Source: Desulfarculus sp. | Lineage (GTDB): Bacteria; Desulfobacterota; Desulfarculia; Desulfarculales; Desulfarculaceae | NCBI GenBank assembly: GCA_016218705.1 | Contig: JACRDC010000043.1 | Location: 1 to 45,804, forward strand | DNA length: 45,804 bases | Direction: 5' to 3' | Shown here: positions 38,252 to 41,150 of the stretch, one piece after another | How the letters are laid out: every line of letters starts with the position of its first letter | How positions within the stretch are numbered: position 1 is the stretch's first letter | Program-made: the position numbers and the translations under genes | The notes under the pieces: generated by a model | Seen by the model: the letters and a program-made list of their open reading frames with translations, nothing else | What the model was told of the DNA's origin: nothing | Database searches by the model: none

Positions 38252-38953
38252 TTAGCCCCGCGGCTGGCCGTTGCCGTTGTTTACGTGACTTACCAGCACC
38301 TTCTGGGCCGCGCCCCGGCCCAGGGCCACCCGGCAGCCCTTGACCGCGATAACCATGGCCCCGCCGCCGGCGCTTATCACTTCCAGCTCGCAGCCCAGGC
38401 CGATGCCCAGGTCTTGCATCTGGCCACTCAGGTTCTGGCCTCCGGCCAGGCGCTCCACCCTCAGGCGTTCGCCCGGGGCCGCCAGGGCCAGGGGCAGGGT
38501 GGGTTGGCGCTTGCCCAGGCAGTTCTGGCACAGGCCGTAGATGTGCAGCATGTGGCGCAGCGGGTGAAAGCCCTGGGCCTTGGTCACCTTTTGTTGCAAG
38601 GCCTCCAGCTCGGGGTCGAAGAACTCGCAGATGGCGCCGCAGCCGGTGCAGATGAGGTGGTCGTGGTGCTCGCCCAGGTGGTGATGCTCGTAGCGCGGCG
38701 GCCCGCCCTCGAAGTCGCGCCGCACGGCCAGGCCGAAGCGGGTGAGCAGCTCCAGGGTCTGGGCCACGAAATCGGGCTCAAGCTCCATCCCGGCCTGGGC
38801 CAACAGCCGCTGCCAGTCCTCGGCGCTGACGTGCTCCTCAGAAGCCAGGAAGGCCTCCAGCACCTTGAGGCGCTCCGCCACGCGGTCCACGCGCTGCTGG
38901 TGCAGCAGGCGCTCGAACTGGCGGCGTTCTTCTTGGTGCAGGACTTGGCTCAC
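38252..38953 (-). CDS. Fur-family regulator fused to a FeoA domain
   Basis: 233 residues. Residues 1 to about 148 are Fur-like: winged helix, the metal-site HHHLGEHHDHLICTGCG, and CQNCLG. Residues about 155-230 are a FeoA domain (LAGGQNLSGQMQDLGIGLG). The fusion suggests an iron sensor in which the FeoA domain aids dimerisation or metal sensing (inference, by analogy with DtxR-FeoA/SH3 fusions). GTG 38953, with GGAG 8 bases before it. It is directly upstream of and in line with feoA, separated by 81 bp. Confidence 0.88.
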   Translation of the reverse strand: MSQVLHQEERRQFERLLHQQRVDRVAERLKVLEAFLASEEHVSAEDWQRLLAQAGMELEPDFVAQTLELLTRFGLAVRRDFEGGPPRYEHHHLGEHHDHLICTGCGAICEFFDPELEALQQKVTKAQGFHPLRHMLHIYGLCQNCLGKRQPTLPLALAAPGERLRVERLAGGQNLSGQMQDLGIGLGCELEVISAGGGAMVIAVKGCRVALGRGAAQKVLVSHVNNGNGQPRG

Positions 38954-39214: not shown

Positions 39215-39772
39215 TCAACCTACTGGGCCGGGGGCTTTCGCCTGGGCCATTTGGCGGATCAGCGCGATCTCCTCGGCGGGGATGCACAAAAACTCCATGA
39301 ACTGCTCGTGTTTGTCCGGGGCCAGCCGCTCGAACTCCAGGTGCCAGCGCCGCATGTCCTCCTGGCTGAAGCCGGAAGCGTTGAGCAGCTCCACCCAGGT
39401 TTGGCGGTTCATCACTCCCACGCGCTCGGCCAAGCCGGGGTTCTTCAATATGCCCAGGATGAAGCGCTGCTGCTCGCGCAGGCGGGCGATGTCATGGTTA
39501 AGCTCCTCCAGGCGGTGCTCCAGGGTGGCGGCCAGGCGGCTGTCAGGGGCCTCCAGCAGCTTGGCGATATCGGCCAAATTCAGGCCGGTCTGGCGATAGA
39601 GGCATATCTGCTCCAGGCGGCGGGCGTCTTCCGGGCCGTAGCGGCGGTAGTCGCCCTTGCTGCGCAGGCAGGGCTTGAGCAGGCCGATGGAGTCGTAGTA
39701 CAGCAGAGTGCTGCGCGACAGCCCGAAGCGCTTGGCCAGTCTGCCCACGGTGTAGGTGAAGTTGTGCGCCAT
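39215..39772 (-). CDS. MerR-family transcriptional regulator
   Basis: 185 residues. N-terminal MerR winged helix (YTVGRLAKRFGLSRSTLLYYDSIGLL... RRYGPEDARRLEQI), dimerisation helix (about 80-115), and a C-terminal domain (TWVELLNASGFSQEDMRRWH) seen in several MerR-like regulators. It lacks the C-terminal metal-binding Cys of MerR itself, so mercury sensing is not supported by sequence. GGAGGTG lies 7 bases before ATG 39772. It is downstream of the merB-like gene on the same strand, with a palindrome cluster between. Confidence 0.85.
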   Translation of the reverse strand: MAHNFTYTVGRLAKRFGLSRSTLLYYDSIGLLKPCLRSKGDYRRYGPEDARRLEQICLYRQTGLNLADIAKLLEAPDSRLAATLEHRLEELNHDIARLREQQRFILGILKNPGLAERVGVMNRQTWVELLNASGFSQEDMRRWHLEFERLAPDKHEQFMEFLCIPAEEIALIRQMAQAKAPGPVG

Positions 39773-39822
39773 GCTCAGCACCTCCAGGAGGCCCCGGCCC
39801 AGGGCGGACCGGGCGGTGCCCC

Positions 39823-39992
39823 TATGAGTGTGTCGGAGAAAGCCATCCATGGCTTTCTCCTCTTGGCGCTTGCCAAAAGTAAATTTTGGCAAGCTTCCGA
39901 AACCACGCCAAATAGGAATTAGGCGTGATTTCGGCGGGCCGTCCATGGCCCGCCCTAGGAGCCTGTCGTAGTGTTACTCCGACAGGCTCCTA
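39823..39992. repeat. Cluster of five inverted repeats, MITE-like
   Basis: Five consecutive hairpins fill 170 bp: 39835-39860 (12-bp arms), 39868-39894 (11-bp arms), 39898-39933 (12-bp arms, one mismatch), 39933-39954 (8-bp arms), and 39956-39992 (13-bp arms). The outer ends are imperfect inverted copies of each other (TATGAGTGTGTCGGAG at 39823 and, on the other strand, TAGGAGCCTGTCGGAG from 39992), so a small non-autonomous element or REP-type cluster is likely. The right end overlaps the merB-like stop codon and may serve as its terminator. Confidence 0.75.
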
Positions 39993-40742
39993 TTCTAGCC
40001 CGGGACGGGGAAAGAGCGCCCCCTGAATCAAGGGAGTAACCCAGGCACCCTGGGCCAGGGTCAGGTAGGTTCCGGGTACCACGCCCGCTTGACGGCGGTG
40101 CTGACGGGCCTGTTCTTCTGACCAGAAGAACACCGATTTGCGTCAGAACCCCTCGATGATGCTGGGCGCCCCGGGCTGGACCACCTTGAGGGGCGCGAAG
40201 ATCAGGGGACGGGCCCCTGGCTCGGCCACCCTGAAGTTCAGGGCGCTGTCCATGGCTATGTGCATCGCCCGTTGGCTGTGGGCGCATTGGGTGGTGATGA
40301 GTCCCTTTGCCGGTTGGCCGCTCAGTCGCCCTTGCACGAAGGGCACCGCGAGAGCGTCCACCGCTCAGGCGGCGAAGACCTGCTGGCCGCTGTCCAAATC
40401 CACCAGGTGCGGGGTCTTGTCGGCGGTCACCGGATAGGCCCAGGACACCGCCCCCTGGGCGTCCCGGAACAGAAAGGTCATGCGCCTTTCCAGGTCCTTC
40501 AGGATGGCGACTGTCCGCGCCCCAGACAGGCCCAAGCGCTGGGCAATGGCCTGGGCGGGCAAGGGTCGGCCGGTGGCCATGATCTCCCCGACCGCCAGGT
40601 TACGCACCCGGTGGTGTTCGGCGGACATGAAGCCCAGGCTGGCACCCAGGCGCCGCGCGTCCCGGGCCACCCCCCGCTGCCAGAGGGCGGCGGGGAGGGG
40701 CAGCATGCAGCGGCCCAGGCCCAGCAACAGATTGTTTTTCAT
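39990..40742 (-). CDS. merB: MerB-type organomercurial/organometal lyase with two selenocysteines
   Basis: 250 codons when UGA at codons 126 (40365-40367) and 200 (40143-40145) are read as Sec. Residues about 30-105 are a MerB-like winged-helix domain (LPAQAIAQRLGLSGARTVAI). Then U-A-V-D matches the MerB catalytic C-A-L-D (Cys96...Asp99): position 126 is Sec and Asp129 is kept. G-F-U-R-K-S-V-F-F matches the MerB segment with Cys159. Cys153 aligns near MerB Cys117. MerB cleaves carbon-mercury bonds and holds the metal between these two residues; Sec would raise nucleophilicity. Each UGA has a SECIS-like hairpin behind it. ATG 40742 has GGAGG 7 bases upstream; ATG 40748 is too close. The frame has no other stop. 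A double nonsense pseudogene is the alternative, but its stops would have to hit exactly the catalytic codons. I recall a MerB-like selenoprotein family named SaoL; membership is unverified. Confidence 0.85.
40111..40132 (-). promoter_or_regulatory. SECIS-like hairpin for UGA codon 200
   Basis: Perfect 9-bp stem with loop GGUC, starting 10 nt after the UGA. GGUC also occurs in the apical loop of the E. coli fdhF SECIS, where SelB binds. Position and loop fit the bacterial SECIS rule (loop guanine about 16-37 nt after UGA; here about 20). Confidence 0.8.
40328..40344 (-). promoter_or_regulatory. SECIS-like hairpin for UGA codon 126
   Basis: A 6-bp stem (GCCCUU/AAGGGC) with loop CGUGC, starting 20 nt after the UGA; the loop guanine is at about +28. 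Shorter than the second one but within bacterial limits. Confidence 0.65.
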
Positions 40743-40860: not shown

Positions 40861-41109
40861 TCAAGGGGCGGGCGGTCCGCCCCGGGCCAGCAGCAGGCTA
40901 AACCCTTCCCCCGTCTCCCGGCAGCCCAGGCAGCGGTCGCCGGCCCGGCGCACGATCACCGGCAGGTCACGAGCCCAGCGGGGGCTGGTCAGCAAAACCT
41001 CCAGGTGCTGGCCGGGGGCCAGGCCACTCAGGGCCTGGCGCACCAACAGGGCCAGCACCGGCGAGTCGCCGCCGCGCAGGTCCAACAGGGGAGGGGAAGA
41101 GCTTTCCAT
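40861..41109 (-). CDS. TusA-like small protein without the TusA cysteine
   Basis: 82 residues in the TusA/SirA fold pattern: LLDLRGGDSPVLALLVRQAL, GQHLEVLLTSPRWARDLPV, and a beta end FSLLLARG. TusA carries sulfur on Cys in RGLxCPxP; here that site reads RGGDSP, with Ser. Two other cysteines occur in RCLGCRE. Sulfur relay by the normal route is thus excluded; it may be a partner or metal/selenium carrier for the lyase downstream (inference). GAGGA lies 8 bases before ATG 41109. It precedes the merB-like gene by 118 bp and is divergent from the NtrC-type gene. Confidence 0.75.
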   Translation of the reverse strand: MESSSPPLLDLRGGDSPVLALLVRQALSGLAPGQHLEVLLTSPRWARDLPVIVRRAGDRCLGCRETGEGFSLLLARGGPPAP

Positions 41110-41134
41110 GGCCAAATCCTCTGCCCTGGGGTAA

Positions 41135-41150
41135 GGCAAGAAGCGTACCC
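41135..41150 (-). promoter_or_regulatory. Sigma54 promoter of the TusA-like/merB-like operon
   Basis: Minus strand GGGTACG-CTTC-TTGC: -24 GG and -12 GC separated by exactly 10 bases; one change from GGCAC. Predicted transcript start near 41124, 15 bp before the ATG. Confidence 0.6.

Follow-up and report, generated by a model that had tools for sequence, protein, structure and literature searches.

Organization of the locus

The window analysed here comprises positions 1–45,804 of contig JACRDC010000043.1 in a Desulfarculus sp. assembly (GCA_016218705.1), a genome that is 99% complete with 0.5% contamination. At positions 39990–40742 on the minus strand lies a gene of 250 codons encoding a MerB-type protein, which starts with an ATG at 40742, ends with a TAG at 39992–39990, and has a Shine-Dalgarno-like AAGGAGG 7 bases 5′ of the start codon. 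Upstream, also on the minus strand, is a gene for a small TusA-like protein (40861–41139; PF01206, E 4.9e-8), which reads DLRGGDSP at the expected position of the CP motif and whose reading frame is kept upstream of the lyase gene in two sister species (L024 and L025). Just downstream is a minus-strand gene for a MerR-family protein (39215–39946; PF13411, E 8.7e-16), a possible regulator; a related MerR-type gene adjoins the lyase gene in L024 and L064. In the window, the lyase gene and the MerR-family gene are separated by a long inverted repeat, AGGAGCCTGTCG...CGACAGGCTCCT (39957–39991), which was seen by eye and is a possible terminator, and further along the same strand a gene (38252–38953) encodes a Fur-type regulator with a fused FeoA domain. 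The neighbours vary among the loci compared and no conserved operon partner was found among them; an upstream MarR-type regulator (five loci) and MerR-type genes (three loci) occur most often. No relative of the lyase gene was found in viral contigs, and plasmids contain two distant matches only.

A MerB-type gene with two in-frame UGA codons

Minus-strand translation of the interval 40742–39990 gives MKNN...FAA*AVDAL...IEGF*RKSVFFWSEE...GLE*, and translation of the plus strand over the same interval gives nothing coherent. Exactly two in-frame stops, both UGA, precede the terminal TAG, as the original prediction had stated without naming the strand, and gene callers that read UGA as a stop split the frame, again as anticipated. 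The first UGA is codon 126 (40365–40367), in the motif UAVD, and the second is codon 200 (40143–40145), in the motif FURKSVFF. In alignments with the MerB chains in the PDB, in which the MerB numbering was counted along the alignment and position 160 is the serine of the C160S mutant, residues 126, 129 and 200 correspond to Cys96, Asp99 and Cys159, such that the UGA codons fall on the two catalytic cysteines, the predicted placement, and the catalytic aspartate is kept as Asp129 (40356–40358). The chance that two random positions among 250 would land on both catalytic sites is about 3 in 100,000, counted for a single gene.

The Pfam MerB family PF03243 matches residues 106–232 (E 4.9e-14, 52.8 bits, above the cut-off of 27), and in a whole-genome search with this family the gene is the sole match, with both TGA codons inside the matched region. 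An N-terminal winged helix is indicated by weak MarR and IclR matches at residues 53–87 and is also seen in the fold comparison, in agreement with the earlier proposal that winged helix and MerB fold are colinear with those of MerB. An AlphaFold model built from nine sequences has a pLDDT of 88.5 and its top structural matches are all MerB proteins, including mercury-bound MerB2 (5c17; Z 21.8 over 205 residues) and mercury-bound MerB (3f2f; Z 19.6); Foldseek likewise matches it to MerB (E 3.8e-11). The alignment and the model support a MerB fold in which two selenols would occupy the Cys96 and Cys159 sites beside Asp129.

The protein shares the fold, the domain order, the metal-ligand positions and the equivalents of Asp99 and Cys117 with MerB, the latter two residues being invariant in the clade described below, whereas both ligand cysteines are replaced by selenocysteine and the scores against the NCBIfam MerB equivalogs are far below their cut-offs (NF033555, 40.3 against 200 bits; NF009710, 46.3 against 193 bits). 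Cys96, Asp99 and Cys159 of MerB are treated as strictly conserved (PMC8261052); here the aspartate is retained and both cysteines are encoded as UGA in all members. Because identity to the solved MerB proteins is only about 16–20%, the substrate cannot be read from similarity.

Selenocysteine insertion

Each UGA is followed by a candidate SECIS hairpin within the coding sequence. The first (40328–40344, minus strand) has the sequence GCCCTT-CGTGC-AAGGGC and spans nucleotides 24–40 from UGA 1. The second occupies 40108–40135 on the same strand, after UGA 2, with a core of TTCTTCT-GGTC-AGAAGAA (40130–40113; nucleotides 16–33 from UGA 2) and an apical GGUC loop. In the SECIS of Escherichia coli fdhF the GGUC loop is at nucleotides 22–25; the loop of the second hairpin is shared with it and is located at nucleotides 23–26, whereas the first hairpin differs in having the loop CGTGC at nucleotides 30–34 from UGA 1. 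An Rfam scan of the region returned sub-threshold chance matches only.

Several patterns in the alignment support the two hairpins. First, the pairs of the first hairpin are formed in 100% of cases in 24 sequences, as compared with 19–67% when the partner is slid, and for the second hairpin, with its lower stem included, 88% of cells are paired against 44–61% when slid. Secondly, 18 sequences close the loop of the second hairpin with a U-A pair and six with C-G, a compensatory switch that changes Trp to Arg on one side and is silent in the next Ser codon. Thirdly, codon identity among pairs of sequences with the same residue is 45% overall, and every column in which it exceeds 85% falls in the arms and loops of the two hairpins; after UGA 1 these columns encode T/V/A, P, F, V and G, and after UGA 2 they encode F, F and E. 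Since folding energies of single sequences are weak evidence by themselves (mean z of −0.5 and −1.0 at the hairpins, against −0.2 and −0.3 in controls), the pairing counts and codon conservation are needed for the assignment, and on this basis we conclude that both hairpins are SECIS elements, one downstream of each UGA.

The machinery for selenocysteine incorporation is complete. All four genes expected under the original prediction are present in the genome: selA, selB, selD, and selC, the tRNA-Sec having been identified with ARAGORN. The selD gene (L038) itself has one in-frame TGA, and SelD is thus probably a selenoprotein too. Among the 24 carrier genomes, selB is over its cut-off in 23, the exception being a genome that is 76% complete. 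It is strongly supported that SelB and the selenocysteine tRNA would read both UGA codons as selenocysteine, each through its own downstream SECIS. That a changed code or simple readthrough instead makes UGA specify Cys, Trp or some other standard amino acid is scarcely credible: we found nothing in its favour, a frame that is open under a changed code being no evidence alone, and it is opposed by the selenocysteine machinery, the presence of selB in 23 of the 24 carriers, the SECIS-like hairpins and the lack of internal UGA codons in this genome's own SelA and SelB genes.

Conservation of the two UGA codons

Six of 98 relatives (the window genome included) gave a match, all with two TGA codons. 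A scan of species genomes identified relatives in records labelled Desulfarculus, Deltaproteobacteria, Zymogenus, Chloroflexi, Anaerolineae and Zixiibacteriota. Among 395 genomes of the phylum there are 14 strong full-length matches, and a set of 400 genomes from the phylum to which one Chloroflexota record belongs contains four, again with two TGA codons in every case. In a script check, each of the 24 full-length sequences examined had TGA at the two sites, and a 25th (L079), which the script's pattern missed, has TGA at both sites by translation. Leaving out L032, L033 and L034, which are frameshifted or partial, the UGA pair is present in all 25 intact homologues, which come from Desulfobacterota, Chloroflexota, Zixibacteria and others with identities down to about 42%, and cysteine was seen at neither site in any of them. 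More distant relatives do exchange UGA with cysteine, and both Cys/Sec and Cys/Cys versions were seen. The original prediction had named the absence of selB or selC, sense codons other than Cys or Sec at these sites in close relatives and further frame-breaking mutations in sister strains as findings that would count against it, and none of these was found.

The dN/dS ratio is 0.19 overall for the closest pair, and it is low before, between and after the UGA codons, the highest value in any computable segment of the compared pairs being 0.46; purifying selection therefore continues past both UGA codons. A pseudogene or a sequencing error with two chance stops, to which the splitting of the frame by gene callers might point, is refuted by this dN/dS pattern, the shared UGA pair and the conserved hairpins, and can be given almost no weight. 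It is nearly certain that the protein contains selenocysteine at both MerB catalytic positions.

A tree of 47 MerB-type proteins unites the 24 clade members, all Sec/Sec, in one group with support of 100/100, on a long stem branch of 2.34 changes per column.

Mercury context and proposed function

MerA is over its cut-off in one of 26 hosts, and the absence of MerA above the cut-off in the other 25 further distinguishes the clade from MerB. HgcA is over its cut-off in 13 of the 26 carriers. In the 395-genome set it is found in eight of 14 carriers and in 105 of 381 non-carriers (Fisher p 0.02), a modest association in a test that ignores shared ancestry, and the clade thus shows some enrichment in HgcA-bearing genomes. 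By profile cut-offs, the window genome has neither HgcA nor MerA.

We favour the interpretation that this is a double selenoprotein of the MerB fold that probably acts, through selenol ligands, as a lyase of organomercurials or organometals, a reading of activity and substrate that draws on the invariant acid and Cys117 equivalent, the MerR-type or MarR-type regulators that adjoin the gene at several loci, the scarcity of MerA, the overlap with HgcA and published work on MerB. By analogy with MerB, the two selenolates would hold an organometal cation, for which methylmercury or another R-Hg+ is the most probable candidate, the aspartate would hand a proton to the carbon, and R-H would be released with the metal kept on selenium. 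The selenols might also make the very strong nucleophile, and perhaps form the diselenide, that the original prediction envisaged. The metal might then be removed by cellular thiols, sulfide or another partner; because the hosts mostly have no MerA over the cut-off, the product is presumably not passed to MerA by the standard route. In calculations, thiols take Hg(II) out of the MerB site (PMC4525700), and MerB without MerA has been noted as an open puzzle (PMC8261052).

A less likely alternative, although one with some claim to attention, is that this MerB-fold double selenoprotein is a lyase for another organometal or organometalloid, such as an organotin, organolead or organoantimony compound or a natural compound not yet recognized. 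The low identity to MerB and the long stem branch are consistent with this, as are the missing HgcA and MerA of the Desulfarculus genome, and SaoL, a MerB-like selenoprotein discussed below, is itself named merely 'organometallic lyase'. However, every acid and metal-binding position of MerB is kept as an acid, Cys or Sec; selenium binds mercury especially well; and the partial association with HgcA also favours mercury.

Less probable again is that the MerB fold and winged helix have been reused for a metal trap, chaperone or sensor without catalytic activity, or for a diselenide redox protein. Selenols could hold Hg(II) too tightly for rapid turnover, as would be more in keeping with a scavenger or sensor than with an enzyme, and the winged-helix domain and the scarcity of a MerA partner could be read in the same direction. 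Ordinary MerB has a winged helix too, however, and the proton-donating aspartate is invariant, although a simple trap or redox protein would have no use for it.

Within the preferred reading of an organomercurial or organometal lyase, a more specific proposal, which we advance tentatively and with somewhat less than even confidence, is that a double-Sec-only methylmercury lyase replaces the MerA–MerB pair in anaerobes, including mercury methylators. If this is so, it would explain some of the demethylation that goes on in anoxic habitats unseen by merB surveys. When merB is counted in anoxic sediments and groundwater, this clade would in any case be expected to be missed, because annotation splits the gene at UGA and the cysteines that define MerB are missing. 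The spread over several phyla, together with the scarcity of MerA and partial overlap with HgcA, raises a testable link to mercury cycling. Moreover, selenium provides both metal ligands of a detoxification-type enzyme and no cysteine version was found in the clade, which is unusual among selenoproteins, and the clade offers a direct test of the contribution of selenium to organometal chemistry.

Relationship to SaoL and other selenocysteine-containing MerB relatives

The double-Sec MerB clade appears to be new, with the reservation that Haft and Gwadz 2023 or Haft and Tolstoy 2025 may mention it. We found no double-Sec MerB in a 2026 review of prokaryotic selenoproteins, in which SaoL is described with one Sec, in the motif CU (PMC13188914); the main text of the deep-Sep paper does not mention MerB; and NCBIfam of June 2026 has no model or equivalog covering the protein. 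SaoL belongs to the SAO system, attributed to Haft and Gwadz 2023 (listed in PMC13188914).

A tentative link to SaoL in the original prediction did not hold, the protein scoring 41.7 bits against the NF040728 cut-off of 140. Two other proteins, L056 and L059, pass this cut-off (175 and 149 bits) and have Cys at the first site and Sec at the second, so that the selenocysteine of SaoL corresponds to Cys159. The window protein resembles SaoL in being MerB-like with Sec at this position, but differs in having Sec at both sites and a Phe before the second. Their settings differ also: the part of the neighbourhood that was scanned with Pfam contains regulators and unrelated genes, and no SAO-like set.

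A single origin of all Sec-bearing MerB relatives is rejected (p 2.6e-9). A second, distant group of MerB-like sequences with two UGA codons was also observed, consisting of L061 (1501–2022) and L062 (1501–2022), with the motif QUAFE or QUGFE and later YAUSTM...FRSEE. Like the window clade, it has UGA codons for both catalytic residues, the second of them followed by a GGTC-loop hairpin, but it has Glu at the Asp99 position (UAFE or UGFE) and different surroundings at site 1. In the tree it lies with Cys/Sec proteins, although one clade for both double-Sec groups is not rejected (p 0.18). The source of L062 is from the same family as the window genome, and the L061 and L062 genomes both have HgcA over the cut-off.

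In six further MerB-like sequences (L058, L060, L087, L089, L090 and L093), site 1 is Cys and site 2 is encoded by UGA. Of these, L058, L060, L087 and L089 were scanned and fall below the SaoL cut-off, and several of the six have the hairpin CTTCCGGTCGG in common.
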